Positions 1,378-63,910 of a stretch of 64,000 bases of DNA are shown in pieces. The stretch is from Mesostigma viride (Eukaryota > Streptophyta > Mesostigmatophyceae > Mesostigmatales > Mesostigmataceae): contig RPFO01000667.1 of assembly GCA_009746045.1 (NCBI GenBank), positions 1,004,221 to 1,068,220 of the forward strand, read 5' to 3'. A program made the position numbers and the translations under genes. The notes under the pieces were generated by a model that searched no databases, had not been told where the DNA came from, and was given only the letters and a program-made list of their open reading frames with translations. Each line of letters begins with the position of its first letter. Position 1 is the stretch's first letter.

Positions 1378-4300
1378 ATGGATCCTGCGAAAGTGCGGTA
1401 TCTGCTGACTGTGGAGTACGTCGGAACTAACTTCGTCGGATGGCAACGCCAGTCTGTTGGTCGTACCGTGCAGCAAGTTTTGGAGGTATGGCATCGTCCG
1501 CAAGCTCGCCCATGTCGTTCATTGGGCTTGGCTTTCAGATTCTGACCACTTTGGGTGGTTCGCCCGTCATGACGCACAGGTTTAACCATGAAAGCCAATA
1601 TTGGAAGAAGAATCACTTCGAAGAACGGATATATCAAATTAATTATCTTATTAACTTACCCCAGTCAAGCCAAGGGGGGGGGGCATCTCTTAGATCGGCG
1701 TTTACCCATGGTTGACATCGTGCCGCTGTTTGACGAGATAATGCGAGGCATGTAATGACCACTGCCAAAGGATATTTGATCGAAACCTTGCAGTCAGCCA
1801 ATTTTACTGCACGGCACAGAAAATCGGTTACGTCGTTTCTGAAGGGACTACGTCCTTCAGGAGGCATTGCAAAGTGTTGCATGGATACTTGTAACCCATG
1901 CGCGCAGTTTATGCAGCCATGTTGCCAAAATCCTTCTTAGGTTGCCCCCCCGTACTATATTTGTATCTCTGATGGCCGATTTGCTTGGTCGTTCTTTCTT
2001 CCATGTATTTTTTACACTGGTTGACATCTGCTTATAAATTTAGCTGCTTTTCACCCTGTACTTGCAACCTATTCCTTTGGCATCGTTCTCTCTTCCATGT
2101 GTTGTTTTTGACACTGGTTGACAGCTGTTTATCAATTTTGTTTGTCGACTCTCGTGCATGTTTGTTAGGTCTCTGCGTGTTTGGTTATTCCCTGGCCTGC
2201 CTGATGTTCCGCCAGGATGGTTGCAGGAAGCCGTCAAGTGTTTCTTTGGCAAACCTTTTTAGTAACTGATTCTCTGGCATGCTTACCTACATTCGGGATG
2301 GTTGCATGCTAACTTGTTCTCTACTATGCTTATCTACATCCGGGCCGGTTGCAGGAAGCCATCAAGAGTTTCTTGGGCGAACCAGCGCTCATCCATGGCT
2401 CGAGTCGCACGGTGGGGAATAGCCAACCACGAATGCAGTTATGACCACCATTTATGATTAAGAATGTAGAGTGTACGGCTCGATTCGAACGGCGAAATGC
2501 AGTTATGACCACCATTTATGATTAAGAATGTAGAGTGTACGGCTCGATTCGAACGGCGAAATGCAGTTATGACCACCATTTATGATTAAGAATGTAGAGT
2601 GTACGGCTCGATTCGAACGGCGAGTGATCGTGATAGTCTTTTACAGAGGCTAGTTCTTGGATTACACAGCGATTCTCTAGTCCATGTGCCCTATGCCAGA
2701 TGTCATGAGCACAACATCCCCCAGTCGCACGGTGGGTGCTTTACGCCGTTGGTAACTTCAGGAAGTCTATCTTGCCGTCATCGGTGCGTCGTTGGGTTGT
2801 GCCGCCGCAATGCCACAGTGGATGGATGCTGTATTATATAATGCTAGTATATCTACTAAATTAATTAGGGGGTTGCGATGGCTTCCTGCCCGTGTGGCGA
2901 AATTCCCCAGTGCCCGTACTACCGCTTCGCTAGCCAAGCCCTATGGTGGTTGGCTTCCAAAATGCCAGCTGTCACCCATACACAGTCGGGAGAACGTTTT
3001 TAGAATACATATTTCCGTTGCACAGAGTGTGCTGGGCTCTACCAGTGACTCTGCCTCTTCTGGGTGTATCGGCTTAATAAACACGTATCCCCTTAATAAA
3101 GACGTATCCCCTTTAATAAACACGTATCCCTTTAATAAACACGTATCCCCTTAATAAAGACGTATCCCCTTTAATAAACACGTATCCCTTTAATAAACAC
3201 GTATCCCCTTAATAAAGACGTATCCCCTTTAATAAACACGTATCCCTTTAATAAACACGTATCCCCTTAATAAAGACGTATCCCCTTAATAAACACGTAT
3301 CCCTTTAATAAACACGTATCCCTTTAATAAAGACGTATCCCCTTAATAAACACGTATCCCTTTAATAAACACGTATCCCTTTAATAAACACGTATCCCCT
3401 TAATAAAGACGTATCCCCTTTAATAAACACGTATCCCCTTAATAAACACGTATCCCCTTAATAAAGACGTATCCCCTTAATAAACACGTATCCCTTTAAT
3501 AAACACGTATCCCCTTAATAAAGACGTATCCCCTTAATAAACACGTATCCCTTTAATAAACACGTATCCCTTTAATAAACACGTATCCCCTTAATAAACA
3601 CGTATCCCCTTAATAAACACGTATCCCCTTAATAAAGACGTATCCCCTTAATAAAGACGTATCCCTTTAATAAACACATATCCCCTTAATAAACACGTAG
3701 GCTGCGACACATGAGCATTCTTGATATAGTGACATACCCCAGCTGTGACATGTACAGCTTGCTACTCCATGATGACCAGTTCCCTGGTTCTGTTGCCACA
3801 AGACAACAAAGTACGGCTTTCGATGTTTTGTGGTTTGATCTCCTGGTCCTGTTGGTAGAGAGCAAAGGGGCCCGTGCGCTCCTTTGCCCTTTATGACGTA
3901 TCGTCGCATTGTTTGCCCCATATGGTCGCATTGTTTGCCCCATATGGTAGCATTGTTTGCCCCCTATGGTAGCATGCATTGTTTGCCCCATATGGTAGCA
4001 TTGTTTGCCCCATATGGTAGCATTGTTTGCCCCATATGGTGGCATTGTTTGCCCCCTATGGTAGCATTGTTTGCCCCCTATGGTAGCATTGTTTGCCCCG
4101 TACGGTAGCATTGTTTGCCCCGTGTGGAAGCGCTGTTTGCCCCATATGGTCGCATTGTTTGCCCCATATGGTAGCATTGTTTGCCCCCTATGGTAGCATG
4201 CATTGTTTGCCCCATATGGTAGCATTGTTTGCCCCATATGGTAGCATTGTTTGCCCCATATGGTAGCATTGTTTGCCCCATATGGTAGCATTGTTTGCCC

Positions 4301-7300
4301 CCTATGGTAGCATGCATTGTTTGCCCCATATGGTAGCATTGTTTGCCCCATATGGTAGCATTGTTTGCCCCATATGGTAGCATTGTTTGCCCCATATGGT
4401 AGCATTGTTTGCCCCGTACGGTAGCATTGTTTGCCCCGTGTGGAAGCGCTGTTTGCCCCATATGGTAGCATTGTTTGCCCCATATGGTCGCATTGTTTGC
4501 CCCATATGGTAGCATTGTTTGCCCCATATGGTAGTATTGTTTGCCCCATATGGTAGCATTGTTTGCCCCATATGGTAGCATTGTTTGCCCCATATGGCAG
4601 CATTGTTTTCCCCATATGGTAGCATTGTTTTCCCCATATGGTAGCATTGTTTGCCCCATATGGTAGCATTGTTTGCCCCATACGGTAGCATTGTTTGCCC
4701 CATACGGTAGCATTGTTTGCCCCATATGGTAGCATTGTTTGCCCCCTATGGTAGCATTGTTTGCCCCATACGGTCGCATTGTTTGCCCCATATGGTAGCA
4801 TTGTTTGCCCCCTATGGTAGCATTGTTTGCCCCATATGGTCGCATTGTTTGCCCCATATGGTAGCATTGTTTGCCCCATATGGTAGCATTGTTTGCCCCA
4901 TATGGTCGCATTGTTTGCCCCATATGGTCGCATTGTTTGCCCCATCTGGTAGCATTGTTTGCCCCCTATGGTAGCATTGTTTGCCCCATATGGTCGCATT
5001 GTTTGCCCCATATGGTAGCATTGTTTGCCCCATATGGTAGCATTGTTTGCCCCCTATGGTCGCATTGTTTGCCCCATATGGTCGCATTGTTTGCCCCATA
5101 TGGTCGCATTGTTTGCCCCATTTGGTCGCATTGTTTGCCCCATATGGTTGCATTGTTTGCCCCCTATGGTAGCATTGTTTGCCCCCTATGGTCGCATTGT
5201 TTGCCCCATATGGTCGCATTCTTTGCCCCATATGGTCGCATTGTTTGCCCCATTTGGTCGCATTGTTTGCCCCATATGGTTGCATTGTTTGCCCCATATG
5301 GTAGCATTGTTTGCCCCCTATGGTCGCATTGTTTGCCCCATATGGTAGCATTGTTTGCCCCATATGGTAGCATTGTTTTCCCCATACGGTCGCATTGTTT
5401 GCCCCCTATGGCAGCATTGTTTGCCCCATATGGTCGCATTGTTTGCCCCATATGGTAGCATTGTTTGCCCCATACGGTCGCATTGTTTGCCCCATATGGT
5501 AGCATTGTTTGCCCCATATGGTCGCATTGTTTGCCCCATATGGTAGCATTGTTTGCCCCATATGGTCGCATTGTTTGCCCCATATGGTCGCATTGTTTGC
5601 CCCATATGGTCGCATTGTTTGCCCCATATGGTCGCATTGTTTGCCCCATATGGTCGCATTGTTTGCCCCCTATGGTAGCATTGTTTGCCCCATATGGTAG
5701 CATTGTTTGCCCCCTATGGTAGCATTGTTTGCCCCGTGTGGAAGCGCTGTTTGCCCTGTATGGTAGCATGCAATAACAGAAGCTCCCTTTCCCCACCATT
5801 CCGCCCGCCCGCCCACCCGCCCCTCCCTCCCTCCCTGCCTCCCTCCCTCCCTCCCTCCCTCCCTCCCTCCCTCCCTCCCTCCCTCCTCCCTCCCTCCCTC
5901 CCTCCCTCCCTCCCTCCCTCCCTCCCTCCCTCCCTCCCTCCCTCCCTCCCTCCTCCCTCCCTCCCTCCCTCCCTCCCTCCCTCCCTCCCTCCCTCCCTCC
6001 CTCCCTCCCTCCCTCCCTCCCTCCCTCCCTCCCTCCCTCCCTCCCCCTCCCTCCCTCCCTCCCTCCCTCCGTCCGTCCCTCCGTCCGTCCGTCCGTCTGT
6101 TTGTTCGTTCGTTTGCCATGGAAACCGGGCGCACTTTCATCTGTCTTAGGGCACCTCGTAACTGACCTGCCTCTAAATCCTAAACCCTAAACAGCATCTC
6201 GTGACTTACCTGCCTTCGATGATATGCTGAAACAAAAGCAAGCTTCTGTTCCCCACCCGTTGCTTACTTTTCCCCTTCCCCTACAAGAACGTGGGTGTGC
6301 CACCGCGGGGCAACACCATTTCCTGACTTGCGATATCTAGCAGCTTACCTATCCCTTATGATATCTCACCGTAGTGGTCAAAATCACTTTGCGTATAATT
6401 GTTTGCGAATCGACCTCGCAAACTGCTATTAATGTGCTTCATTTTGGGTCGCAAAGTTCAAATGTTACCGCACCGCGCCTGCGCCGTGCCGCACAGCCCC
6501 AAGCCTAGCTATTTTAATCAGTGCTACCCAATGGATCAATAAAATTACTCAGTTGGGTAGTTGGGTTACATTGGAAGGGGGACAAGGGATATGAAGTCGG
6601 TGAGACCCAAGCCACTGACCACAAACAAGTCGATCGGCTCGCAAACCTAAAACTTTGCCTTCGTTTTGGGTCGCAAACTATAAATTTCACCTTGTTTTGG
6701 GGTTGCAAAGTAATTATTCGCAAAGTGATTTTGACCACTACGGTATTGCTCACCTGCCCCTTACGATATCTAATAGCTCACCTGCCCCTTATGATAACTT
6801 ACATCTTACCTGCCCCTCATGATATCTAATAGCTATTCGCATCTGATAATGTTGGTTCTTCTTCCCATTCACCCACCCTTTTGTCCCTACCAGGACGCGG
6901 GCGTGCACGCGCTGGGCAACACGGCGCACCTGGATATCTGCCGCGTGAGCAAGCGCAAGCCGGGGCAGACGGTGCGTCCCATGAAACAGTTATGAGATAT
7001 GCATTGTGCTGAAAAAGAGTACTAGCAACAGTTATGAGATATGCATTATGCTGAAAAAGAGTACTAGCAACAGTTATGAGATATGCATTATGCTGAAAAA
7101 AGAGTACTAGCATGCTATGAAACAATGAAGGGGTACCGTGCGTGCGCATGTTGGTGGCACCGCTCCCTTTGCCCGCTAGGAACGTGGCAGGCAGGGTTGA
7201 TGGCCCATTGAGTCAAATGATAGTAAATAGTGATGGTAATAGTGATAGTAACAGTGATAGTTATCGTGATAGTAATGGTAATAGTGATAGTAGTTAATGA

Positions 7301-10300
7301 TGTTGAAAAACAACTGTATGGTGCTGAATCGCAGCACATTACCTTCACATGCAATGTTTTCTGGCCTCCGTTTCCTTCTGGTCTATCTTGTTTTGATTGT
7401 GTCTTTCTTTCTGTCTGCGACCGTTGGAATCCGTTGCAGTTGCATGTACTCATGGTAGAGGTAGTAGTAGTACTACCTAGTAGTAGTAGTATACTACTAA
7501 TATAGAGGTCCAGAGTGCAGCCGTGATCAACCAGGAGTCACCTTTGGCCGGCTTCCGCGGCGTGACCCAGTGCGTAGTTCTCCTACTCACATCCGCCCCC
7601 GTGGGGCTAGCAGTTAGATCTGATCCACTGGTTCATATTGGGGAATTTCGGACGCACTTGCACCGCTCTCCGGTAGAGTGCTTTTTTCGCAGTTGGGCTA
7701 TCGCTTGGGATGCCTTCGGATCAGGAGACCCCTACAGCCGCGAAATCATGCAAGAGGTCCTGTGTTCGAATCCGGTACGGTACCAAACTATTTCATAGTA
7801 TACTACAAATCTAGTATACCAATGTATATACTACTTATCTAGTATACTGCTAATGTATATACTACAAATATAGTACTACTAATATAGTAGCACATTTAGT
7901 GTCAGCACATCTAGCTTTCCTTCTTGCGTTCCTCCCTCTGTGACCACCACACCGCCTGGCCCCCGGCAACGTGTGCCATCCAGCAACTTATATCCGCAAA
8001 CCCAAACACCATCTCCCTCGTTTGCAACAGCCCACCCTTCTGCGCTCGTGGACCTGCGTCAGCGCTTTTTACACCTTTTGGTGTCGTGCGTGCGCATTGT
8101 GGCGACACCGTACTTGTGCCACTGCCTTGTTGCATATTCTAAAAGAGATTCGTTTTTTTCCTGTGAATCCTAACTCAAGGGGATACTATGATGTAGCCCA
8201 AAATTATACCACTTGACAACGGCAACAGGCTCTGTTGCCAAATGGTATAATATCCCCTGCATATTGTTACATACTACTATTATTTCTTTGCTATTAAATG
8301 GTGAGATCTGGCAGCTCCTCCACACTAACATTTTCAACTTTGTCTTTGACAGCCATTTGCAAACTTTGCTTCTGTGGTGCACGTGATGGAGACGTGCAGC
8401 TGGCCCCCCACGAGCCGTCGGCGGTGCTTAAAGCGATCAACCACTTCCTGAGGGTAAGTAATCGACTTACTCGTTGATACCTATACTTCTCTTGTAACTA
8501 ATTAATCCTACGGGTAAGGGCGTGTGTGGTGGTGAAGAGCGCAGCTACCTTTGGGAGGAGCTATGTTACTCCTCTCTTCGGCAGCAGCTGTGTTATTCCT
8601 GTCTTTATTATTCCCGTCTTTGGCAGCAAGCCAGCAACTATATGATTCTTCTCTTTATCATTCCTCCCTTTGGCAGCAACTATAGGATGGTGTTCAAGGC
8701 GCTCAACCACTTCCTGCATGCAGGGGTCTTCATACGGACGACGCAACAGCCAGGTACCGATTGGGTCAGCAGGCACTGGACAAGAGGGGAAAATCTGCTG
8801 CGTCGTCCGCCGTATAGTCGGCAGGTAGATCAGCGGGCACCTCCGTTTGCTTCAGAGGCCCGCGATTCAGAGCATCGTCAGCAGCAAGCATCAAATGCTT
8901 AAACTGCTTGGCCAGTTCAGGTTGTGCCACGAGGGTTTGCATCAGCCTCGTGGCCTCGTCCGCACTAAAGCGTGGCAGGACGGAGCTTGCGGCCTCGCCA
9001 CTTGGCGCATCTGTGTGTTCTCCCGTGCGGCTCCGTGTGCCGGAAGCCATCGGGACGTGTATGAATACAAGTTAAAGCCCCCGGCCGGCTAAGCTATGGC
9101 GGTCGGTCACGTTGAGCTTGGGAGAATGAGAACACAGAGAACCGCTGTCCGAGCTGGCCAACCACTGGCTTATGTCCTAGCCAGCAAAGCCTATCCGGTT
9201 AGCCGTAACCGTGGGACAGGCTAGCTGTGCGTACTGACCCGGATAAGGCCCCGGACTGGGGCCTAGGTGGCGCCGGCCCTAGGCGCCGCCCTTAGACCGG
9301 TCGACCGCATCGGACCGCCGGATAATAGCCGGCGGCTTAGCGGACGCTAGCGGAAGGCGTGCGGACGGACATGGGGAACTTAGAGCCAGATGCTAGGGCT
9401 CTAGAGTTACTCAACTCCCTTATCTCTCATGCATTCCCGTAGGGACGGTTCTCGACGCCTTCCACCGCTTTGTGCGGGTAAGCAGGCACTGGACAACAAG
9501 AAAATACATTTCTTGTTTTTGGTCCATTGGAGTTCCTTCCCACCAAGAGAAACATTTATTTTACATTTTTGTGTGCTAGGCTTTATACGGACAGCCTATA
9601 CCACACCTTCAAACTCAGTGCACATCATTATCAAGTTGGTTATTGTAGCACCATGCTGGGGGCCCAGCATACTCGAACACAAGGTGTTGCCCCTCTTAGC
9701 AGCGTGGGTGGGTGGGTGGGAGCTGAAAAGAGGCCTCCCTACGTCCCCTACACCACTCTAAGTACTGACTATCATTCACATTGCGCCACGCAGGCCTGCC
9801 GGCTGGCGCAGGTACAAGGTGTACTGACTGCCAATCACAGTTGCGCCACGCCTGGCGGCTGGCGCAGGTAACAAGGTCTAGTGACGTACGTTAGAAGCTA
9901 CCTAGGCCTGCACTCCGGAACCACACTCAGCCTAGGCACAAAAAGGGCCGGCCGGTGCAGTACCCTCGTGACAAGCGCTAGTCTTACGCTACCTACGGCA
10001 GGTCGGTCCCCTTTGAGCCCGTCCACGCGTCATATATAAAATGAGCGAAGCTCAGCAAATACATTTCTTGTTTTTGGTCCATTGGAGTTCCTTCCCACCA
10101 AGAGAAACATTTATTTTACATTTTTGTGTGCTAGGCTTTATACGGACAGCCTATACCACACCTTCAAACTCAGTGCACATCATTATCAAGTTGGTTATTG
10201 TAGCACCATGCTGGGGGCCCAGCATACTCGAACACAAGGTGTTGCCCCCACACCTCCTTCCTGGCCACCAAGGCTGTCGCCAACCTTGGTGCCGATTTTC

Positions 10301-13300
10301 TTTCCGCCCATGGCCCCCCTCCTGCACGCTGCCACGGCTGTACTGCCGCCCCCGTGTGGCCGCTACGGTTTCCCGGCGGACGCAGGGCGGCACCCATGTC
10401 GTTCCCCCCGTTAGGGGGGCGGTTTCCAGCGGCTGCTCATTAGGCCTTACGCCCCCGGACCGTCTCTCACAAGCCCAGGACCCATCACCAGCCCCACCCC
10501 CGAGGCTGGGATTTCCCGGCATTGAAACCTTTGTGGCGATAGGCCCTCTACCCTACCAAGGCCTTGGCTTGGAAACTGCTTAGCCAAGGCCCTGACCAGG
10601 GCTTGTGTTGTTGTAGGAAATTTTTTATGGCATAGATATGCCCCCCTGGCTGAACCGAACTCTTTATCGCTTTTCCTATAATGCATCATACAGGATAAAA
10701 ACAAGGCGATAAAACAGCAAGAATTTCAGCCCCGCCAGGCGAACATTCTTTGCTGAAAAACTGGGCAATGATGAAGAGCGCGCTCCTCCCACCAAGATTC
10801 GCTCCAGCCCCGCATCCTCCCCGAAACTCCCGTCTGGCCACAGGCCGAAAGATCGGGTCCGCTGTCAGGCTCCTGGCAGTTATGGGCTACCCTGGCACCC
10901 CGCGCTAGCCATCTCCACGTTTAAGGCAGATTCGCCTCCACCTGTGATTCTTTCCACCGTAGCCGCTGGCCCTGGCCTGTATGGCTCCTTCCCTGACGTT
11001 GTCCGACTAAAACGCAGCTTCCCCAGTGTCAGGAAGCCGCTTGCCGCACCCAGGGGTAGAGGGGAATCGTCAGTGGGCCCAGCGCCGGAAATCACACCCT
11101 TTTACTCAAAACGTAGAGCCCCCCACCCAACAACCATTACCGTGGCCTGTAACGGTGGGTGGCGAACATAAAGAACTTTATTCCAGGCCTCTCCACGCCC
11201 GGAGAGGCCGATAGCATCGTCTTACATTCAGCGCAGCCGCCATAGCGGCCAGCCGACCTTGCCAGCAAATGCTGGGATCAAGTTGCGAAGCTGAAAAGAG
11301 GCCTCCCTACGTCCCCTACACCACTCTAAGTACTGACTATCATTCACATTGCGCCACGCAGGCCTGCCGGCTGGCGCAGGTACAAGGTGTACTGACTGCC
11401 AATCACAGTTGCGCCACGCCTGGCGGCTGGCGCAGGTAACAAGGTCTAGTGACGTACGTTAGAAGCTACCTAGGCCTGCACTCCGGAACCACACTCAGCC
11501 TCGGCACAAAAAGGGCCGGCCGGTGCAGTACCCTCGTGACAAGCGCTAGTCTTACGCTACCTACGGCAGGTCGGTCCCCTTTGAGCCCGTCCACGCGTCA
11601 TATATAAAATGAGCGAAGCTCAGCAAATCCTTACAGAAAAAGTAACAGTCACAGATGTTTTTATCTAATCCCCCCGTGTCGCTCATCAATCAACCAGGGG
11701 ATGCCGCAGCCAACCGTTTTCTGCGGGTAAGCACACACTAGATTGCCAGGTTGGGCACTCGTAGATGCGCTCGGAGCAGGTGGTGCAAGCATTTCCGTTT
11801 TTTCAAGCTTTGTGGGAGCCGAGACAGTAGGGTTACAATCATCTTGCTTCACATCACACATTATCTGGATCTTTCGCGAGCTAGAACTGCTTTCTAGGTA
11901 TACTGCTACTATTGATGGAAGTCAAGTGTTTGTGAGGGTTTTGGACGTGGTGGTTGGGGGGGCGGGGGGGGGGGGGGGGGGGGGGACGTGACGGCTGCCA
12001 GTGGTCTGCCAAGTCCCTTGGAAGCGGTCTCTGTGACTTTGGTGTAGTGAGGCTTTTTGGTGTGTTCATTAATGTATTAATGAATAGCACGTGGATCTGT
12101 TGGCCCCCAGTCAATGGCAGAGCGATCCAGGCATGCGTGCAAAGGTCACTATAGACAGCGTTCATGATTCGCCTGCTGCAGTTTTTCATTTACCTACTTT
12201 TGTTTTCCTTACTCTACTTAAGACTATGAGCCCGTTGTATGAGCCCTTTCTCGCTGATGTGAGACGCGTGTCCATGGGATCGCCTTATTGGTCCTTATGT
12301 GTGAATCAGTGGAAGATATTATGTAGTCGTCCACTTTATTATGTTGTGTATGAATCAATGGAATCAATTTGTAGTCCATGTGTTACTTAATGGGATTGCC
12401 TGATACGTCCTTACGTGCGTGCAAAGTAGTTTACACGCTCATCGCCCATTCCCTTGCTTGTCTCACATACATTGTTAGTAGCGGTATTACTGCTATCACG
12501 TTACTTGCTTTTTTATGATAGTATCTGCTAGTTTGATACTATGGAAAAATTCCTATAGCTAGCTCGTGTAATGTATCCAAAGCTTGCCGCAAAGGGGGGG
12601 GGCAAACATACTAGAACTCAAGCACTGAAGGGTGTTTTGCGCGGCGAAGCTATACACCTGTTATTCAGTAAGTAGGATTGCTCTTAACTCTCCATAGTAA
12701 AATATATACTACTATGAGCTATACACCTGTTATTCAGTAAGTAGCATTGCTCTTAACTCTCCATAGTAAAATATATAAGCTATACACCTGGTATTCAGTA
12801 AGTAGCATTACTCTTAACTCTCCATAGTAAAATATATACTACTATGAGCTATACACCTGGTATTCAGTAAGTAGCATTACTCTTAACTCTCCATAGTAAA
12901 ATATATACTACTATGATTCTTCTTTTCCGGGTTTTCCTTGTGTTGCATTCCCCTCTCACCTCCGTAACTTATCATTCTCAATGAAAATATATATATATAT
13001 ATATATGATAATGACAAAGTACGGAGGTGGGATGGGCTCTCCATACATACATACACGCCCCTCTTTGGGCCATGCTCTTATTCCTGTGTGCATGCGTGGA
13101 CATGGTCTGTGGGGTTTGGCTCATTATTGTTGCAAATACTGTGGGGGGCCCCATGGCCCTGTGCAGAAGGCAGGGACCCTGGATGTGTCAGTGCGCGGCG
13201 CCCACCGCGTGCCAGAGACGATCCACGCACGCTACGCCGCCACGAGCCGTGTGTGAGTGGTTGGATGTCTGGTTTGTTTCGTGGTCGCGATGCACTAAAC

Positions 13301-16300
13301 CTGCAGGCTTGACGGATACCCTCCCGTTTCCTCTTTTTGCTCAGACCTTGGCATCGTCAAGCCTGTGCTGGTGGTCTTGTGACGTCGTGGGCACTGAAGT
13401 AGCAATGCCACGCCCGTGCTGGTCGTCTCGTTGATAAGTACACACATTCTACTCTGGGCAAGGGGAAATGTCTTGGGGCACCGCCAAAGGGGAGATGCTT
13501 GGTACTACTATACTGCCAAAGTCAGAGGAAATTTCTTGGGATACCACCACCGACCACGTGTGAGTCACTAGAAACTTGTTTAGTGGACTCTCCATGTCCA
13601 CAGGGGCGAGAACCAGCATGGACTCAGCTTCTGGGGCGTAGCCGGTGCCATAACCGGAAGTGGGAAAACATAACCGGATGGGAACCCCCTTACAGGCTTG
13701 TTCCCCGAGCGCATGAACTCGTCGCCCCATAGATTAATTTTTCGTTGCTCCTAGATAGTGGGTTTAGTTTTGTGTGCTTTTGGTTACACTGTGGGTCGCC
13801 GATGAGGCAGTCACGTACGAGGAGTTCCTGTCATCTGATGCAGACACCGAATTCCCAGACACATAGGAAGTCTATTCAAGCTTATGACGTCGTAACCAGA
13901 ACGGGGGTCCATGTCCCGGTCATGGGCCGTCAGCCAGAAGTTGAGAGTTACGCCTCCACCTGACCAGTGCCCAAATTGACCAGTGGTTCAGTTGCCAGAT
14001 CATCGAAGCTGCTCACATAATCTGTGATGGCCCTTGCTTGGTTCTTTTGTGTGCACAAGATCATTGAGGCTGCTCACATCATATGTGATGGCCCTTGCTT
14101 GGTTCTTTTGTGTGCACAAGATCATTGAGGCTGCTCACATCATCTGAGATGGCCCTTGCTTGGTTCTTTTGTGTGCACAAGATCATTGAGGCTGCTCACA
14201 TCATATGTGATGGCCCTTGCTTGGTTCTTTTGTGTGCACAAGATCATTGAGGCTGCTCACATCATCTGTGACGGCCCTTGCTTGGTTCTTTTGTGTGCAC
14301 AAGATCATTGAGGCTGCTCACATCATCTGTGACGGCCCTTGCTTGGTTCTTTTGTGTGCACAAGATCATTGAGGCTGCTCACATCATATGTGACGGCCCT
14401 TGCTTGGTTCTTTTGTGTGCACAAGATCATTGAGGCTGCTCACATCATCTGAGATGGCCCTTGCTTGGTTCTTTTGTGTGCACAAGATCATTGAGGCTGC
14501 TCACATCATATGTGACGGCCCTTGCTTGGTTCTTTTGTGTGCACAAGATCATTGAGGCTGCTCACATCATCTGTGACGGCCCTTGCTTGGTTCTTTTGTG
14601 TGCACAAGATCATTGAGGCTGCTCACATCATATGTGACGGCCCTTGCTTGGTTCTTTTGTGTGCACAAGATCATTGAGGCTGCTCACATCATCTGTGATG
14701 GCCCTTGCTTGGTTCTTTTGTGTGCACAAATTTCATTTGTCCCCCAGTTACCTGCTAGCGCGCATTTGAGCTGCGCTGTCCTCGCACGGACCATTTGTTT
14801 GTCGTTCTGTGCGTGGTGTGAATGTGTGCGCAGGTACCGCTAGGGGACACTCCTCATTGCCCACTTTAATCCTCAAAACACTGTGCCCTCTGTGCAGGTA
14901 CCACTACCGCACGCTCCTAAATGCCTGCGGTCATCCTAAAACCACGCGCCCTATGCACACATATGTGTTCTATGTGCATATGTGTGCAGGTACCACTACC
15001 GCATATTGTCAGGGTCGCTGCAGCCATCAGCGTTCGAGCAAGGGCGGGTGTGGCACGTGCATGAGGAGCTGGATGTTGATGCCATGCGGGTGGGTGGGGA
15101 GACTTGGATTGTTGTAAGACTTTGATGAAGACCTTGATTAAGACGGACTTGACGAAAACTTGGTGGTGTGCTTTGGACACCATGTGGGCAACTATGAGAC
15201 CTGGGTTTGCCCCTTAGTAGTTGGTCATGGAAGCCTCGCCGGTGGGTACAGGATTATGCGGGTGTCTGTACTGTAGGACTTGGGCTTGAGCTGTTACAGT
15301 TTGTACAGTTTGCAGCGAAACTCTGTCGATCTCTATAGGGCTCTTGTCTGCCACAGCTGTGGGTCTACGATTAGCTGTTTAGCTTTAGCTTTTTAGCTTT
15401 GACAAATTCGTAGTGGATGCCATGTGGGTGGGGTAGGCTAGTCTTCAAGATTTAGTGGATGGCGTGGATGCACTGCGTGTGGGTTGAGATGTTCAAGTGA
15501 AGAGTTGGCTTGACCAAGCCCATCGACAGGTGAAGGCTTTTGGACGCCGTACAGCTGGGTATCGAACCTGAGTTTTTGGTTTCGTGGACGTGGACATGGT
15601 GGGTGGAAGAAAGATTCAGGTCTGAAAAGCATTTCCAAAGACAAGCTCCAGCTACTGTTTCGAAGGCAACCGCAATCAATATTGTTGTGCAAATTTGTTA
15701 TTGTTGTTGTTGTTGTTGTCGTCGTCCTCGTCGCCACCGTTGTCGTTGTTGTATAAAGGTCGTTCGAGGCCATGAATGCGGTAATGGTAGCCTTCATGTA
15801 AGCTCGACTTTGCCTGATTCGGGTAATGTGCGCTGGAGGCCATGCAATGGGTAGAGTTCCCCCTGCATGTCGGGGACATACCTAAGCGGTAGGAGTCTTG
15901 CGCTTAGGTTAAATGGACTGGGCTTTGGAGGCCGTGCAAGTGGGTTTGGTTATTAAGTGAATTAAGGAAGGTAAAAGTTTCTGGGGCCATACATCAGGCA
16001 GATGGGTCGAAGCTTAGGGATGGAGTAAGGTTGAATTAACTTGAAGGCATTGGGAGGGTGGTGCGGACACCCGGTTTCAAGCTCTCGTTTTGCATGTCGG
16101 TTGTGGTGGGTTGTATGGAAGTGACTGTGGAGTTTCACGTGTGCTGACTATTTCCTTCCACTCACCCCACCACATACTGTATGCCACCACACGCAAACCA
16201 CAACCCGCACCGCACACTCACCACATTTGCGTCCTCGCCCAAGCCTTTTTGCAAACCCACAAGTTCGAAAATGGTGAATACATGAATGTGATGTGCACAT

Positions 16301-19300
16301 GTTCTTTTAAATATACGAATATTTGATGCAGAGTGCGGCGGAGATTCTGCTGGGCCGGCACGACTTCAGCTCCTTCCGCGCCGTGGGTTGCCAGGTATTT
16401 TGATTTATATACTCGAATATGATGGGGTGGAGATTCATTACGTCATGGTTAGCCCTGATGTGTTTGAATGGTTCCGCGCCGAGCCACGCCTGGTATTTTA
16501 ACAGATGGAATGGAGAGGTCGCTCGTGTATGTTAGCAACAGCCTCATAACCTTGTACTATCTATTTATTTCAAGATGACCCACTATCTATCTATTTATTT
16601 CAAGATGACCCACTATCTATCTATTTATTTCAAGATGACCCACTATCTATCTATTTATTTCAAGATGACCCACTATCTATCTATTTATTTCAAGATGACC
16701 CACTATCTATCTATTTATTTCAAGATGACCCACTATCTATCTATTTATTTCAAGATGACCCACTATCCTGGGGACCTGGGCCAGTGCAGGCTTGATGGCT
16801 TGGTTCTACCCACACGGCCATGCACCCACTAAACCCTTTCACCCAATGCATCATCGCTCCCTCCGTAGTGTCAGCCGATTTCCCACCGTCCACGTGCCAA
16901 ATCCCCAGGCACAGAATCCAGACACGCAGGCAGACTGACGTGTACTCACTATTACTGGCATTCGTCACCAGCGGAGCTTGTACCCTTATTTCCCACATCG
17001 CACCCGTTTGTAGGCGTGACCGCTGCTGACCTCTCCATGATTGGCATCTTGGTTACGGTCACCATGATCTGCACCCCTCCATGTTTGGGCAGGGGCATCT
17101 TTACCCCGCTTATGTATGCGCCCACCACCCGGCACGCAACCCCGTCCACACACACACATACACACACACAGCTAGTTGATACCCAACTGACGAGTACCCA
17201 ACTCATTGGTGCTCGTTATGATTGACGTCCGTCACCGCCCACCCGCCCGCCAGGCGCGCGATCCCGTGCGCACGCTGGACGTGCTCACCGTGGCCACTGT
17301 GGCCCACTGGCCCCACTTCTGTCCGCCGCAACCGGCACCTCGACCCACGGAGGGCGGCGACGACGGCCTCGTGAAGAGCGAGCCTAGGGGGGAGGCAAGG
17401 ACTGGTAGTGCTGGTGATGCAGCAGTCAATAATGCCGGTGAGGGCCTGCTGCAGAGCGAGCCTCAACTCCGCGGGGATGCCTCTGGTGGCGACGCCGACG
17501 TCATGCATGCTGGCGCCGTAAAGGTTGCTGCTGGTGACGGGACGTTCCGTGCTCACGCGGGTGACAGTAATGCTAGCATTGGAAACCCAGGCAGATCCAG
17601 GGACAAGACAGAGGATGCTGGCAACGCGGGAGTCGGCGCGGGCGACCCCGCGGCGTTGAATGCTGTGGACGGCCTCCCCAGGCGCGGGTACAACCCTCTG
17701 CACGGCCATGGCGTGCGGGAACCAAGTCCTGACGCCGAACAACGCATGGGGCACGAGCGCCCTGTCATCACGGCGCAGGAGCATAATTCCCCGCTGGCGG
17801 TGTCCAAGCGTCGCAAGGGGGAAGCTGGCGGCCCCATCCCCGCTACTCCCCCCCGTAGCGTTGCACCCGCCCCGGGCAGCCTTGTAGGAATCAGCTCCCC
17901 AAAACACACAGCACTCGGCGGAAGTGGGGGAGCAGCTGATGCGGCTGCAAGCGCTGTGTCGGCGGCTCCCTCTCGGGAGAGGCGGGCGGGCGTGAGAACG
18001 GCGCAAGGTGACGTGCCGAGTTTCCAGGAGGCGTACCGGGAGGTGGTGGTCACGGTCAAGGCGCGCTCGTTTCTCTACCATCAGGTAAGCGGGCTGTTCA
18101 ATACTGGTACTATGGTACTTATAGTAGTAGTATAGTCCTTTTGATATCAGAGCGCCATGGTATTGTTAGTAGTACTCTGGCAAGGCGCGCTCGTTTCTCT
18201 ACGGTCAAGTAGGCGGGCTGTTCCTGTGATCACCTGCTTGTGATGTATCTGGGTGATGTGGGAGTGGCGTTCATGGATTCGACCGAAAGGCGCGCTTGTT
18301 TTTCTACCGCCAAGTAAGCGGGTTGGATAGTGAGAAGGTTGGCTGGTCAAATGTTTAAGTCCTTATGCGATCACTGTGATGTGGAAATATTAGTAGCACT
18401 CTGGCCAGGCGCAATCGTTTCTCGACCATCAGGGAAGCGTGCACGATACTCAGTACTAATTTACGGTACGGAGAGTAGCATGTGAAACCGACATGCCATT
18501 AATGGATAGCCTGGTAAGGCGGTCTGGTTCCATCAAGCGGGCAGTACTGTCGAGTAGGGCGTTATTATAACCACTGTAGATGGGGTATTCATGGATTCGG
18601 CAGACAAGGCGCGCTCATTTCTCTGCCGTCAAGGGAGCGGGAGCGCCGCGTCGCAGGAGATTCGTGATGTTGGTTTGGGAGTGTTTGTAGAAACTGGTGC
18701 ATGATGGTGGCTGGGGGAGTGATTATAGAAACTCACCAAGTATGTTGTTTTACGAGTCTCGTGCCTATATCGATGAGGATGAGGGAAACAAATAACCCAG
18801 CACTTTCCTGCCCCGCTAGGGTACGGGTGCTAGCATGTAGGCTAGTGCATAGTGCTAGCGTGTAGGCTAGTGCATAGTGCTAGCGTGTAGGCTAGGGCGT
18901 AGTGCTAGCGTGTAGGCTATTGCATGTAGGCTAGCGTGTGTGGTGACTGCTTTCACCCCTACCCTGTGTGCTTGTGGTGCAGGTGCGGCTCATAGTGGCG
19001 GTCCTCAAGGCTGTTGGCTGCGGCAAATTGGCGGTGGAGGACGGTGAGCATGTGGCCTCTATCCCATACTGGCTTCTTTTGCCCCTTTGCTCCTTGGGAG
19101 AAATGTTTTGTTGGCTGTGGAGGGCAGGCATGAGGTGGATGGCGGTGAGCGCAGGGGGGAATGTGCAGAGGGTTTCTTGGCATTGGCATGTGAGTCAGTC
19201 CTGGCAGTGGTCTTACTGTTGGCAGGTAGAGTGGCGGTGAGCGCGGGGGGGGGCATGCGCCAGGAACAAGTTGTACCAAGAGACGTGCCAGGAACATGCA

Positions 19301-19752
19301 TATCAAGAGACGTGCCAGGAACATGCATATCAATTGAATTTTATTTCCCTCACTTCAGTGCCCACAAACAGGCTTGCCTTCGATTCCTGGCCACACTTTG
19401 GTTGGGGCATGATGCAGACGATATTTGTAACTTTCCTGTGATTTTTTTCCAATGAGATTAGCATAGTACTCCGTGGCATGCCCATGCGCATGGCACGCAA
19501 GTACTTTCTTATGCCCCAGTCTCTCACGCGCCACTTTGCTGAACTAACTTTTTATGAAATCCTAATATATTTTATACTACTTGTTTCTGTGCCCATGCAG
19601 TCCGCAAGATCCTTGACGCAAAGAACAATTTAGAGATCGCTCGCCACAAGGTGGCCATGGCCCCTGCCTGTGGCCTATATTTGGCCCAGGTGAACTATGA
19701 TGAGAGCGAGGTGCTTGGTGCGGAGGAGCGGATTGACGAGATGGAATGCTAA
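1378..19752 (+). CDS. PUSL1-like: tRNA pseudouridine synthase, TruA/PUSL1-like, ten exons
   Basis: Isomerises uridine to pseudouridine in tRNA; PUSL1-type members are usually organellar. Exons: 1378-1485, 2355-2411, 6894-6971, 8400-8453, 13167-13252, 14990-15089, 16332-16394, 17254-18084, 18983-19043, 19601-19752. All junctions are GT-AG, all phases fit, and the frame is open for 529 residues to TAA. Family landmarks run in order: YLLTVEYVGTNFVGWQRQ (8-25); GSSRT then DAGVHALGNTAHLDI, with catalytic Asp56 as the first codon of exon 3; HARYAATSR; YHYRIL; EILLGRHDFSSF; PVRTL (186-190); RSFLYHQ (453-459); VRLIVAVLKAVGCGKL; APACGLYL near 500. Exon 8 adds about 235 Gly/Ala-rich residues between the PVRTL and FLYHQ strands, including two tandem copies of a roughly 26-residue unit. 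Only 1,590 of 18,375 bp are coding. Exon 2 is the smallest well-supported exon (57 nt). No targeting peptide is evident before residue 8. Confidence 0.93.
2207..2256 (+). repeat. Degraded upstream copy of exon 2 and its acceptor
   Basis: The segment GGTTGCAG/GAAGCCGTCAAG at 2219-2238 repeats the true acceptor and first codons of exon 2 (2347-2366, GGTTGCAG/GAAGCCATCAAG). Similarity continues for about 29 nt and then hits a stop. A partial copy of the acceptor side alone (TACATTCGGGATGGTTGCA) lies at 2288-2306. It is intronic and non-coding. Confidence 0.8.
2397..2740 (+). repeat. Downstream copies of the exon 2 end with donor region
   Basis: The exon 2 end GGCTCGAGTCGCACGG (2397-2412) recurs as GGCTCGATTCGAACGG at 2477, 2541 and 2605, in a 64-bp tandem unit. 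A further match, AGTCGCACGGTGGG, lies at 2723. The donor GT is lost in the three tandem copies (GGCG instead of GGTG) and kept in the last. Confidence 0.8.
3066..3705. repeat. Minisatellite, 19-20 bp unit, about 33 copies
   Basis: Tandem array of a unit built on CGTATCCCCTTAATAAACA with C/G and length variants. It lies in intron 2 of the pseudouridine synthase gene. The alternation of the AAACACG and AAAGACG variants suggests expansion in blocks of two or three units. It has no coding meaning. Confidence 0.97.
3899..5772. repeat. Minisatellite, 22-bp unit, about 85 copies
   Basis: A 1.87-kb array around the core GGTAGCATTGTTTGCCCC. Because 22 is not a multiple of 3 and the unit has no stop, several frames on both strands stay open for hundreds of codons. 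These frames are artefacts of the repeat. Single-base variants (TAGC/TCGC, CATATGG/CCTATGG) and a 4-bp CATG insertion (near 3973, 4197, 4311 and 5767) mark higher-order blocks. It lies in intron 2. Confidence 0.97.
5816..6110. repeat. CCCT tetranucleotide tract grading into CCGT and GTTC
   Basis: About 250 bp of CCCT repeats, polypyrimidine on the plus strand, with a few one-base slips. It ends in short CCGT and GTTC runs (6067-6110). It directly follows the 22-bp array in intron 2 and is open in all plus frames as low-complexity Pro/Ser/Leu. Confidence 0.97.
6278..6320 (+). repeat. Degraded copy of exon 3 start
   Basis: The segment AACGTGGGTGTGCC...GGGGCAACACC, preceded by a pyrimidine tract, mirrors the true exon 3 start GACGCGGGCGTGCA...CTGGGCAACACG at 6894. 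The AG acceptor and frame are decayed. It is about 610 bp upstream of the real exon. Confidence 0.65.
6321..6840. repeat. Degenerate repeats in the intron 2 end
   Basis: Short units with GATATCTAATAGCTCACCTG-like cores occur at about 6335, 6750, 6785 and 6815. Segments with CGCAAACT/TTTTGGGTCGCAAA recur at about 6410-6460 and 6640-6730. No gene is seen. Confidence 0.6.
6985..7115. repeat. 43-bp tandem repeat, three copies
   Basis: Three near-identical units with the core ACAGTTATGAGATATGCATT start just after the exon 3 donor in intron 3. The last copy has one extra A. Confidence 0.9.
7116..8340. other. Intron 3 body: AT-rich trinucleotide-like tracts
   Basis: Contains GATAGT/GGTAAT-type repeats (7215-7300) and TAG/TAC-rich tracts (7450-7505, 7795-7890). 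A B-box-like GTTCGAATCC sits at about 7767-7776 without a foldable tRNA around it. No gene is recognised. Confidence 0.6.
8685..8725 (+). repeat. Degraded copy of exon 4 end
   Basis: GTGTTCAAGGCGCTCAACCA/CTTCCTG repeats the true end of exon 4 (GTGCTTAAAGCGATCAACCA/CTTCCTGAGG, 8423-8453). It lies 240 bp downstream. The donor is lost. Further copies occur at 9443-9476 and 11705-11731. Confidence 0.8.
8769..9496 (-). mobile_element. Retroelement-like insertion with 16-bp flanking repeat
   Basis: AGCAGGCACTGGACAA occurs at 8769-8784 and at 9481-9496, bracketing about 700 bp and consistent with a target-site duplication. Inside, a minus-strand frame (9050 to about 8785) encodes a hydrophilic protein start (MASGTRSRTGEHTDAPSGEA onwards), cut at the left edge. 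This looks like the 5' end of a minus-strand element that has lost the rest. The family is not recognised. Confidence 0.5.
9443..9480 (+). repeat. Second degraded copy of exon 4 end with intact donor
   Basis: GGTTCTCGACGCCTTCCACC then GCTTTGTGCGG/GTAAGCA resembles the exon 4 end and donor (8423-8459). The GTAAG donor is intact, so this is a possible cryptic splice site. A third copy, CCAACCGTTTTCTGCGG/GTAAGC, lies at 11712-11734. Confidence 0.65.
9502..11628. mobile_element. Composite repeat A-B-A'-X-B' in intron 4
   Basis: A (9502-9693) and A' (10057-10248) are near-identical 192-bp direct repeats. B (9721-10060) and B' (11289-11628) are near-identical 340-bp direct repeats. X (10249-11288) is single copy. 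This reads as two head-to-tail units, one lacking X, or as an LTR-like arrangement with B as terminal repeat. B ends in CTCAGCAAAT, and A' begins at that AAAT. No reverse transcriptase, gag or transposase is recognised in X. Near-identity of the copies implies a recent event. Confidence 0.75.
11956..11985. repeat. Poly-G run
   Basis: About 28 G in 30 bases within intron 4. It could form a G-quadruplex and is likely to be unstable or prone to sequencing error. Confidence 0.95.
12647..12916. repeat. 62-70 bp tandem repeat, four copies
   Basis: Four copies of a unit starting AGCTATACACCTG and ending AAAATATATACTACTATG, with one internal deletion. It is in intron 4. Confidence 0.9.
14004..14731. 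repeat. 61-bp minisatellite, about 12 copies
   Basis: Near-perfect tandem unit beginning GATCATTGAGGCTGCTCACA and ending TTTTGTGTGCACAA, differing mainly at an ATCTGTGACGG/ATATGTGATGG/ATCTGAGATGG stretch. It occupies much of intron 5 just before the exon 6 acceptor cluster. There are no spacers, so it is not CRISPR-like. Confidence 0.97.
14827..14935 (+). repeat. Two upstream copies of the exon 6 acceptor and start
   Basis: CAG/GTACCGC at 14831-14840 and CAG/GTACCACTACCGC at 14895-14910 precede the true CAG/GTACCACTACCGC at 14987-15002. The second copy keeps 14 identical bases including the acceptor, then diverges. Both are usable-looking AG sites. Confidence 0.85.
15165..15950 (+). repeat. 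Series of degraded copies of the exon 6 end and donor
   Basis: The exon 6 end GTTGATGCCATGCGG/GTGGGTG (15075-15096) recurs in weaker form at about 15176 (ACACCATGTGGGC), 15413 (GTGGATGCCATGTGGGTGGG), 15468, 15542, 15583, 15768, 15837 and 15928. Spacing is 40-240 bp. Some copies keep GTGGGT or GTAATG as a potential donor. No other gene is seen in intron 6. Confidence 0.75.
16405..16502 (+). repeat. Degraded copy of exon 7
   Basis: This stretch mirrors 16311-16404 in order: ATATACTCGAATAT, GGTGGAGATTC, then GGTTCCGCGCCG and CTGGTATTTTAA. The true sequence has ATATACGAATAT, GGCGGAGATTC, CCTTCCGCGCCG and CAGGTATTTTGA. The whole exon plus both splice sites was copied about 97 bp downstream and has decayed, with AG to TG at the donor side. 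Confidence 0.8.
16560..16768. repeat. 30-bp minisatellite, seven copies
   Basis: Near-perfect 30-bp unit (core ATGACCCACTATCTATCTAT), in frame as a 10-residue repeat on the plus strand. It lies in intron 7, so it is presumably not translated. Confidence 0.95.
18160..18650 (+). repeat. Ladder of five copies of the exon 8 end and donor
   Basis: The exon 8 end AAGGCGCGCTCGTTTCTCTA then CCATCAG/GTAAGCGGG (18058-18094) is repeated at 18182, 18286, 18404, 18514 and 18604, with growing divergence and a period near 110 bp. The copy at 18286 keeps AAGTAAGCGGG. Other copies have the donor changed to AAGTAGG, AGGGAAG, AAGCGG and AAGGGAG. Confidence 0.9.
18818..18940. repeat. 25-bp tandem repeat, about five copies
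   Basis: Unit GCTAGCGTGTAGGCTAGTGC and ATAGT, degenerate at both ends, in intron 8. Confidence 0.9.
19108..19250 (+). repeat. Degraded copies of the exon 9 end and donor
   Basis: TTGGCTGTGGAGGGCAGGCA at about 19113 mirrors the exon 9 end TTGGCGGTGGAGGAC/GGTGAGCA (19029-19050). GTGGATGGCGGTGAGCGC (about 19134) and GTAGAGTGGCGGTGAGCGC (about 19226) repeat the donor GGTGAGC. Confidence 0.65.
19395..19504 (-). repeat. Dispersed short repeat, copy 1
   Basis: A 110-bp segment in intron 9 is the reverse complement of 22541-22661, at an estimated 80 percent identity. Shared blocks are GCATGCCACGG, CTAATCTCATT, AAAGTTACAA and CATGCCCCAACC. A third, partial copy is at 44238-44300. It has no coding capacity and is MITE- or SINE-like in size. 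Confidence 0.75.
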
Positions 19753-22264: not shown

Positions 22265-22295
<31 letters not shown>

Positions 22296-34387: not shown

Positions 34388-43276
<8,889 letters not shown>

Positions 43277-44215: not shown

Positions 44216-44237
44216 AGTATGTATTAAGTACTTCGCG

Positions 44238-59200: not shown

Positions 59201-60209
59201 GTCATTCAATGATGGCCCCCATCACTCACCGTGTTGTTGCCCGAGTTGACGGTGAATGTCGCCAGCAGCGAATCGTGGCCGTCCGCAAAACTCCGAAACG
59301 ACGCCTTGCCTGTCAGCCCCCGATGGTACGGCGCCAACACCACCGTCGACCCTGGCTGTGCAACGCAGGGCGTGTCCTGCAGGCCCGCATCCCCGCATAC
59401 GCCAGCAGAAAACTCGGACACGCTCACCAGGGCCTCCAGGCCGAAATCGGCCGCCGCTGGGGTGTCAAACGAGGGGCAGAGGCGCCACACCTCCACGAAA
59501 TCATTGCGGGGATTCGTGGACGCGCCGGAGGGAACCGCCAGCTCATCGTCGATCGGCCGAAGGAAGTACCCGCACGCGCTGCCCACCCTGGGCCGCCCCG
59601 CCAGGTGGGCCGGCATCAGCCCGCGCAGCACCGCGCCCGTGTGCGCCGGCACTAGCACATGCACCGTGGGGCGCAGGGACCCGCCTGTTAGCATCCGCGC
59701 GCGGTCCAGCGCGTACACCGCGGGCGGGTCCTCGCCTGTCCCAACATAGAACGCGTCCGGCAGCGACGCGAACGCCAGGGCGTCCCCAGGGTCCCCCCCA
59801 GGGAGCGCGACCGCGACACCCCGGTAGAGCAGCCCGTAGGGGATGCCTGTGAGGGAAACGATCAGGCACAGGTAGTGGCTGGGCGTACTACCGCCGCTGC
59901 CGCCCGTGGCATTGCGCGCGTATTCCATGATCAGCCAGCGGTCGGCCAGGTGGTCATAGGTGGCGTGGGGGGCACCCTGGAAGGGGCCCGTCCGGCAGAT
60001 GGTGTTGGAGCGGTGGAACTGGGTCAAGAAGGACTGCTTGACCTGCAGCCAGGGCTGCTTGGTGTAGACGCGGTACAATGATTTCCCGAACAGACTGCGG
60101 ACGATGGTGATGACGTTGTTGGGCCCTATGGCGGCGGCGGGGGAAGGGGGAACGCCGCCAAAGCCTCTTTCGGAGTAGCGCAGCATGGGGGGGGCCAGGA
60201 AGCCGCCCG
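56208..60209 (-). CDS. Secreted probable beta-propeller protein with Cys-rich C-terminus
   Basis: Three minus-strand exons with fitting GT-AG junctions: 60209-59230, 57470-57044, 56368-56208; 521 residues from the first exon to TAA. Exon A has AAIGPNNVITIVRSLFG, YDHLADRWLIMEYA, LPDAFYVGTGEDPPAVYALD and a DFVEVWRL strand. Exon B has MWVELRRS, PYDGAHRWLPHAALDGEGNV, ALGYSV, YPSLYYTGR and SMAVDPMDGCSFYF. These blade-like motifs match a family of secreted bacterial and algal proteins of unknown function, probably propeller-fold. Exon C encodes CSSNADCNDGQFCSLDKC and RDGACV...CDEQSDSC, a small disulfide-rich domain. The 5' end is open: the acceptor at 60210 needs one base from an upstream exon. The Cys-module exon ending at 60902 offers two, so joining them requires another exon or a one-base change in the C8 run at 60185-60192. 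Confidence 0.8.
56430..56560 (-). repeat. Copies of the exon C acceptor and start
   Basis: True junction (minus): TGTGCAG/GCTCCGCCCAGTGTTC at 56375-56353. Echoes: CGTGCAG/GCTCCGCCCAGTGGTCC at about 56447, with downstream AACACTGACAT resembling AATGCTGACTG, and CATGCAG/GCTCTGCTGAGTCA at about 56540. Both keep an AG acceptor. Confidence 0.85.
57480..58460. other. Intron between exons A and B, distal part
   Basis: No gene recognised. Minus- and plus-strand frames near 57810-58182 lack known motifs. ACAGAGCCGCTCAGAAATCA is tandemly duplicated at about 58313. Confidence 0.4.
58468..58832. mobile_element. Fold-back element, arms about 140 bp
   Basis: 58470-58607 and 58692-58830 are near-perfect inverted repeats (outer ends AGGCCTCGTGTTGGACAGCA and its complement; inner part with CTCTGTTTATTT) separated by an 85-bp loop. 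It looks like a fold-back or MITE insertion in the intron. No clear target duplication was seen. Confidence 0.85.
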
Positions 60210-60901
60210 CTGGGAGAGGGGCGGCCGGTGCATGTTATCAGGAGGAAGAAAGTGAGGGACATTTGCAGAGGAAGTTAGACAGGCTATCAACTCAAAGAGG
60301 TTGTTAACCCCAACATCCCAAACAATCTAACACAGGGCGCCCCATGCATATGCAATGATTGCTAAGTGGAAGCTAAGGGCATTCAAATTGAAGGATGGGT
60401 GTCAACTCCAACAGTCAAGGCCCGCTGCTTCTAGGAAAGGGGCGGGCATTGTTGTACAACTGCGAGGGTGACCCCAGGGGGAGATTGTGAAAGTGTAGCC
60501 AAGCATTGCCTGCTGACCATAGCACAAAATTTCTAAGGCAAGAACCTCAGAGCCGTACATTTCCACAGACAGAGCGAGGGTCATGGAGACTGATATTTCG
60601 CAAAACAATTTCGCAAAACACATTCGTGTGATAAAATTGATTGGCAGGCACAACCATGCTGTGCCCGGCCCGCACATGCGTGTTTATCTGCCAGGCGCCA
60701 CATTCCAACAAACTAAGCATGCATAAAATCAGCTGTGATAAGAGCCCCTCCCCCCATAAAAGAGTCAACTGTGTTTCAGCAGCAGAGAAGACGACTTTAG
60801 CATGCGGCAGAATCGCTGTACAGAGGCAGCTATTGTATGACTGCGGCAACAATGCAGAAATGCCAGCAGAGTAAGAACGCTAGACAGGGTGCCATGCGTA
60901 C

Positions 60902-63780: not shown

Positions 63781-63811
63781 TAACTTGCATACACATAACG
63801 ACCAGACTGAC

Positions 63812-63910
63812 AACCTGGCACCTGGACGTGAGCGGTGGCGGTGGGGCCCGCGATGAGCGTCAAGGAATGGCACCTGGACGTGACCGGTGGCGGTGGCGTT
63901 TGCGAGTGTA
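63812..63910 (-). repeat. Duplicated segment near the module 1 exon
   Basis: GGCACCTGGACGTGAGCGGT then GGCGGTGG (63819) and GGCACCTGGACGTGACCGGT then GGCGGTGG (63872) form a tandem pair. On the minus strand they give CCACCG followed by GTCACG or CTCACG, possibly an exon end with its donor and a decayed copy. Confidence 0.5.

Follow-up and report, generated by a model that had tools for sequence, protein, structure and literature searches.

The window analyzed here, a 64-kb stretch of DNA, carries genes for a tRNA pseudouridine synthase of the TruA type, an M14 zinc carboxypeptidase, a TLDc-like protein, and a protein that the initial annotation labeled "propeller". In the introns of the first three, we identified copies, mostly decayed, of the neighboring exon ends together with their splice sites, here referred to as echoes (Table 1). 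The TruA protein read from the window was 100% identical to protein P0001 of Mesostigma viride (Mesvir1) in the best local alignment, which covered 68% of the query, and P0001, when aligned back, fell on exons 1-8 of the gene. As the match holds in both directions, the window belongs to the nuclear genome of the streptophyte green alga Mesostigma viride. The published genome of this alga is described as a 442-Mb assembly with 24,431 genes and an intron length given as 1141.9 bp, built from PacBio long reads combined with an optical map, of which 66% consists of repetitive elements (PMC6947507).

The other assignments differ in firmness. The match of three joined TLDc-like exons to the TLD Pfam family was weak (E = 0.071, under the curated cut-off). 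The large main exon of the propeller gene matched no Pfam family and had only four protein matches at E ≤ 0.001 among 7,398 scored candidates, all named Mesvir1; the gene belongs to a large family, with 87 exon matches in the assembly.

Echoes of exon edges in the window genes

The initial annotation had reported such copies in all four genes. In our main test, each exon edge was represented by a 60-mer (40 nt of exon and 20 nt of intron) and compared with up to 1.5 kb of its own intron, with 300 length-matched random segments of the genome per edge as the null and with tandem arrays of at least three copies or a period of ≤12 masked; the null pool, here and for the genes outside the window, excluded one random locus of 31% GC (L015). 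A same-strand echo was present in the own intron at 14 of the 37 edges (p < 0.01), 13 of which scored above all 300 segments, and at 15 edges when p < 0.05 was allowed. In the reverse-complement control, none of the 37 edges passed even at p < 0.05. The echoed edges were distributed over TruA (8/18), the carboxypeptidase gene (5/12), and the TLDc-like gene (1/4), and at least one passing edge was found in eight of nine TruA introns (one of them solely via the borderline exon 9 donor), four of six carboxypeptidase introns, and one of two TLDc introns. The propeller gene fell away (0/3): neither side of its single tested intron passed, nor did one further donor, and the echo annotated at its exon C was not recovered (donor p = 0.56).

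An earlier comparison of 34 edges with the foreign introns of the window had those introns scoring at chance. That comparison and the listing of copies let masked N match N, with artefacts in the rows for carboxypeptidase exon 2 and for the exon 7 acceptor, and the scoring was redone without such matches in the main test. The start of carboxypeptidase exon 5 was placed at 40406 in the earlier scoring and the copy listing and at 40408 in the main test, and the tested end of exon 5 and start of exon 7 each lay one base off (40555 and 42859 rather than 40556 and 42860), which is negligible for a 60-mer. A chance origin is ruled out by random segments, foreign introns, and reverse complements, and the echoes are a real, well-supported local pattern in three of the four genes.

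The individual edges largely agreed with those annotated. TruA exons 2, 3, 4, 6, 7, and 8 were all echoed, with exon 9 barely passing (3/301, p = 0.0100), as were carboxypeptidase exons 3, 5, and 6, to which our analysis added exon 4. Among the TLDc exons, the claim held for one acceptor, that of exon 29204-29022, with four copies. At the other end of this exon, the donor falls in a plain 26-bp array that was masked in the test.

The copies share several properties. Their exon content is mostly 9 to 48 nt (about 10 to 50) and their intron content 0 to 52 nt, generally less intron than exon. Twenty of 25 junction-spanning copies have kept AG or GT, as counted by eye among copies that score at least 14 and are not each significant. 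The annotation had counted from one to about ten copies per edge; we found one to four exon-bearing copies and never ten. Its statement that copies are best nearest the exon applied to most of the seven edges with two or more exon-bearing copies scoring at least 14, the nearest copy being top scoring at five, tied at one, and not top at one. None of 100 40-mers centered 60 to 120 nt inside exons was echoed, and the duplicated piece therefore includes the edge, which argues against a copying of exons as such.

The clearest case is TruA exon 8, where five units follow one another at spacings of 124, 106, 120, and 198 nt, each opening with 26 to 28 nt of the exon end. The units share a conserved core, and by eye units 0 and 2 are homologous far into their intron part, so that the structure is that of a tandem array whose repeat unit contains the splice junction. 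Spacing of 40 to 130 bp had been described as frequent, and regular spacing was seen at this exon only. At the TLDc acceptor, three of the four echoes cross the junction and keep cag/GG (the slash marks the junction), and the four extend up to 560 nt upstream. The 26-bp array at the donor of that exon is a young counterpart of the decayed echoes.

Two further observations concern the TruA gene. The public model P0001 (window 17254-18132) continues past the donor of exon 8 into the following intron, where it stops, and is without exons 9 and 10; the donor that it skips is the one lying in the five-unit array. In addition, intron 4 contains recent duplications within 9499-11628, pairing 9499-9693 with 10054-10248 (99.5%) and 9721-10060 with 11289-11628 (99.7%).

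Table 1. Positions, within the window, of the host genes, their exons, and the echoes of exon edges
Feature	Position	Strand	Remarks
Window	C2133:1004221-1068220		64 kb, in 440-Mb assembly
TruA-type tRNA pseudouridine synthase gene	1378..19752	+	10 exons; exons 1-8 = P0001; PF01416 in P0001
TruA exons 1-5	1378-1485, 2355-2411, 6894-6971, 8400-8453, 13167-13252	+	
TruA exons 6-10	14990-15089, 16332-16394, 17254-18084, 18983-19043, 19601-19752	+	
TruA exon 2 acceptor echo	2174..2255	+	82 columns, 71%; ttgcag/GAAG kept
TruA exon 3 acceptor echo	6279..6316	+	
TruA exon 4 end echo	8689..8716	+	Second, weaker copy 9437-9482
TruA exon 6 acceptor, two echoes	14817-14842, 14891-14911	+	
TruA exon 6 donor, two echoes	15413-15432, 15464-15489	+	
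TruA exon 7 donor echo	16472..16499	+	
TruA exon 8 array, unit 0	18057..18180	+	Final 28 nt of exon 8, donor, and intron start
TruA exon 8 donor echo, unit 1	18181..18286	+	Core 43 nt, 91% identical
TruA exon 8 donor echo, unit 2	18287..18406	+	85%; intron part, by eye, also similar to unit 0
TruA exon 8 donor echo, unit 3	18407..18604	+	73% over 73 columns
TruA exon 8 donor echo, unit 4	18605..18641	+	84%
TruA exon 9 donor echo, borderline	19109..19150	+	69% over 42 columns
TLDc-like exon with echoed acceptor (29204)	29022..29204	-	Part of TLDc-like gene
TLDc acceptor (29204), four echoes	29363-29329, 29439-29422, 29672-29606, 29779-29737	-	
26-bp tandem array over donor of TLDc exon 29022..29204	28937..29021	-	GTGAGTAACG repeated
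M14 zinc carboxypeptidase gene	34388..43276	+	7 exons; Mesvir paralogue P0121 aligns exon by exon and carries PF00246
Carboxypeptidase exons 1-4	34388-34812, 37150-37371, 38445-38540, 39316-39541	+	
Carboxypeptidase exons 5-7	40408-40556, 41510-41645, 42860-43276	+	
Carboxypeptidase exon 3 acceptor, two echoes	38020-38057, 38137-38170	+	
Carboxypeptidase exon 4 start echo	38853..38890	+	
Carboxypeptidase exon 5 acceptor-side echo	40270..40296	+	
Carboxypeptidase exon 5 donor echo	40867..40908	+	
Carboxypeptidase exon 6 acceptor echo	41323..41404	+	87 columns, 71%
Propeller gene	56211-60234	-	Label from the initial annotation

Junctions, duplication background, and genes outside the window

Profiles of echo frequency against offset had a sharp peak of decayed copies centered on the window junctions (13/30). 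With all arrays masked, 13 of 32 junction-centered 40-mers were echoed, versus about 10% of randomly placed points in these introns (P = 0.00005, the lowest value that this test can return), and with only periods of ≤9 masked, the figures were 14 of 34 versus about 20% (P = 0.001, about twice the rate); the denominators, here and for the propeller family below, reflect the omission from these profiles of edges and tiles with masked query bases or too little target. Recognizable tandem arrays are distributed otherwise, occurring within 50 nt of 10 of the 36 window junctions where 8.5 are expected (P = 0.32). Since these younger arrays show no clustering at junctions, duplications seem to be born uniformly and to differ in how long they persist, as would be expected if the exon half is fixed. 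A mutational hot spot at junctions was rejected on the basis of this array placement.

Duplication is also widespread away from these genes. At random loci, 8.0% of 3,569 60-mers (in 18 of 20 loci) had a direct copy within 1.2 kb, versus 3.0% with an inverted copy and 0.3% (one-sided) with a copy in a far segment; this count has no rows for L012 and L019 and includes L015. No host gene was recognized by eye among the open reading frames (ORFs) inspected at the random loci, and a codon-usage exon finder, which predicted 171 exons there and 160 in locally shuffled sequence, was not used. Arrays detected by Tandem Repeats Finder covered 24% of the introns of the window genes, 17% of those of a carboxypeptidase paralogue, and 14% of those of the propeller family. 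Local direct duplication is therefore a common, general feature of the sampled Mesostigma loci. The annotation had envisaged introns growing outward from their exons, an idea that finds no support in arrays that are spread over the introns and in random loci that are locally duplicated as well.

Genes outside the window were sampled from two sources. The first is the carboxypeptidase paralogue (on C1989), whose rebuilt exons yield exactly the public protein P0121 and which has all six intron positions in common with the window gene. Only one of its 12 edges passed at p < 0.01, the donor of exon 4. That edge has no echo in the window gene, and the paralogue in turn had none at any of the five edges that are echoed there. 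As the paralogues differ in their echoed edges despite common introns, echoes arise and vanish independently. Intron 6 of the paralogue (loci L023 and L029; exon 6 donor) starts with GCAAGT and looks like a GC-AG intron.

The second source is the propeller family, for which the intron between two conserved exons was taken from 32 copies among the 87 exon matches, leaving out very long introns and one near-identical copy. These copies are mutually related, several of the 32 introns being near copies, and are not fully independent; their donors were picked by script, and those of L041, L049, and L058-L060 may be off by some bases. The introns are mostly short (median, 588 nt). Two of 64 edges passed at p < 0.01, both in a single intron (L047), and five passed at p < 0.05, where about three are expected by chance; among the inverted controls, none of 64 passed at p < 0.01 and one at p < 0.05. 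With all arrays masked, 4 of 62 junction-centered 40-mers scored, versus 2 to 3% in intron interiors, and with only periods of ≤9 masked, 4 of 63 scored, versus 5 to 10%, so that under this masking the junction was not prominent at all.

In total, 3 of 76 edges outside the window passed at p < 0.01, versus 14 of 37 inside, which is at odds with the dense ladder in nearly every intron that the annotation had extrapolated to the whole genome. Absence from other genes of the genome had been named there as evidence against such a process, and in our sample the pattern was largely absent (1/12 and 2/64 edges). Echoes exist elsewhere but are uncommon in the sampled genes; the three rich genes are neighbors and look like a local excess.

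Origin of the echoes

We consider it probable that the echoes are what is left of short tandem duplications, with units of about 25 to 200 bp, that chanced to straddle a splice junction, nothing splice-specific being needed. After a tandem duplication across a junction, the outermost of the duplicated splice sites (at a donor the first copy, at an acceptor the last) could stay in use and the exon would be unchanged, leaving a spare exon end and splice site inside the intron, where they would decay. Duplications lying wholly in exons would be purged by selection and wholly intronic ones would fade on both sides, such that a junction copy might remain recognizable for longer by virtue of an exon half frozen by selection. 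The copies are direct and often cross the junction, the best case is a tandem array of whole units, and local direct duplication is common; the contrast between direct and inverted matches (14/37 versus 0/37) favors direct tandem duplication. Edges with a single decayed copy presumably have the same tandem origin, and the order of events, their neutrality, and the continued use of the original splice sites would follow from this scheme. The annotation's central proposal, that short direct tandem duplications across exon borders are fixed and then decay in introns with many copies retaining AG or GT, agrees with this reading.

In a simulation combining uniform tandem duplication with frozen exons (arrays masked; parameters free), junctions were echoed at 10 to 17% and interiors at 5 to 16%, a mild junction excess or none. 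The genes outside the window fit this outcome, 5 of 74 junction-centered 40-mers (1/12 plus 4/62) scoring at least 14, which is not above the simulated range. What weighs against this reading is the window itself, where 13 of 32 junctions stand against about 12% in the simulation nearest to the observed array cover, and where echoes are about four times as frequent at junctions as at randomly placed intron points (P = 0.00005). The window excess is thus not fully explained by the uniform-duplication model. The window was chosen because the pattern had been seen in it, which inflates its rate, and a real local or gene-specific excess may nevertheless be present.

Such an excess could arise if copies were kept for a function: they might act as backups or decoys for the authentic splice sites, enhance splicing, or provide regulated alternative junctions in certain genes. 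The window excess over the simulation, the AG or GT present in 20 of 25 copies, and the read-through of the exon 8 donor by P0001, which suggests that splicing there may vary, are compatible with this explanation. Copies aligning across a junction are expected to keep AG or GT anyway, the two carboxypeptidase paralogues share their introns but not their echoed edges, and most edges elsewhere have no echo, and we therefore regard functional retention as unlikely. We give a similarly small chance to the idea that duplicates spanning a junction are kept preferentially in some Mesostigma genes, at about three times the level set by uniform duplication plus exon constraint, with the duplicated splice sites as tolerated backups or decoys; if so, gene-specific ladders would be a visible record of selection on splicing.

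The genome-wide process directed at splice edges, by which introns would grow outward through repeated edge duplication, appears highly unlikely. The sharp junction peak of decayed copies in the window (13/30; 13/32) and the nearest copy being best at five of seven multi-copy edges, with one tie, are what it would predict. However, only 1/12 and 2/64 edges passed outside the window and 0/3 in the propeller gene within it, young arrays are not placed at junctions, and intron interiors and random loci are duplicated as well.

Under the Rogers model, introns are born by tandem duplication of an exonic AGGT, and the echoes would be the scar of that birth. Both cases involve tandem duplication near splice sites, and the model has been put forward for amphioxus globin genes (PMC3087553). 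The expected scar, in which the exon end resembles the intron end and the exon start the intron start, outscored every one of the 17 foreign introns in 2 of 36 comparisons, which is chance, and the paralogues share six intron positions but not echoes, implying that the introns are older than the echoes; we hold this origin to be extremely unlikely. Introner-like mobile introns and an artefact of assembly or chance are scarcely credible either, even in a genome of which 66% is repetitive (PMC6947507), since the same edges score at chance against the introns of the other window genes and against random segments, the published assembly rests on long reads and an optical map (PMC6947507), and misassembly would not yield decayed copies of about 70 to 90% identity. 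Introner elements were rejected as a candidate in that, for the edges tested, introns of other genes scored no better than chance among the introns of this window, the only ones compared.

The most likely mechanism is therefore tandem duplication and decay resembling that of the amphioxus "mirages", and neither a new kind of process nor, in the sample, a genome-wide ladder.

Comparable systems and other repeats of the window

Rogers (1989) and Zhuo et al. (2007) are cited in the literature on intron gain by tandem duplication. Such gain is described for potato (PMC4974935) and Drosophila (PMC2891723), and the likeness to our case lies in tandem duplication across an intron-exon boundary or proto-splice site (PMC4974935, PMC2891723). 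In contrast to intron gain (PMC2891723), there is no sign of a new intron at the echoed edges in Mesostigma, and an existing intron is lengthened.

The annotation knew of no description of a dense ladder in nearly every intron. The amphioxus mirages are tandem repeats that cross exon-intron boundaries, with units of 10 to 160 bp and both 5' and 3' boundaries hit; AG/GT is kept in many copies, splicing is reported to be undisturbed, and degenerate repeats are also described from within an intron (PMC3087553). The Mesostigma units likewise span the exon-intron boundary, at both boundary types and with AG/GT in many copies (PMC3087553). Unlike young mirage arrays, the Mesostigma copies are mostly decayed (about 70 to 100% identical over short cores), and they occur in a green alga, at several edges per gene in three neighboring genes, known from one assembly. 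In human genes of segmental duplications, minisatellites have expanded across exon-intron boundaries and altered introns (PMC2812944); those repeats are recent and were recognized between near-identical paralogues, whereas the Mesostigma echoes are relics within one gene. The introner elements of the protist Amoebophrya also place repeats at exon-intron boundaries, but introners recur among many introns (PMC7789003) and each echo belongs to a single exon edge. We found no report of boundary-spanning repeats in Mesostigma among the matches listed in our literature search, and the word "intron" appears nowhere in the main text of a second Mesostigma genome paper (PMC7027972).

The echoes extend the amphioxus mirages to a green alga. 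As exon edges serve as fixed references, decayed tandem duplications remain visible there after purely intronic ones have become unrecognizable, and echoes at exon edges offer a cheap gauge of the share of tandem duplication in intron length. The genome paper ties the long introns of Mesostigma to repetitive elements, which make up 30.1% of intron space (PMC6947507); in the introns sampled in this study, 14 to 24% is taken up by recognizable tandem arrays.

Beyond the echoes, the window is rich in repeats of other kinds. Pfam searches of its raw ORFs gave nothing useful besides a reverse transcriptase, an Rfam scan gave no match at gathering scores, and a plasmid search with part of the repeat block at 44500-55900 gave no match. 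That repeat-rich block contains the reverse transcriptase ORF (RVT_1, 47389-48456) and several copies, direct and inverted, of a longer ORF-bearing element. A cysteine-rich coding segment lies upstream of the propeller exon in two diverged copies on the minus strand (61292-61483 and 63555-63746; 66% identical), neither with a Pfam match. Large tandem arrays lie at 3899-5769 (84 copies of a 22-bp unit) and 13997-14729 (12 copies of a 61-bp unit), and within a long open frame at 21184-22317, TTCG is repeated in tandem about 283 times.

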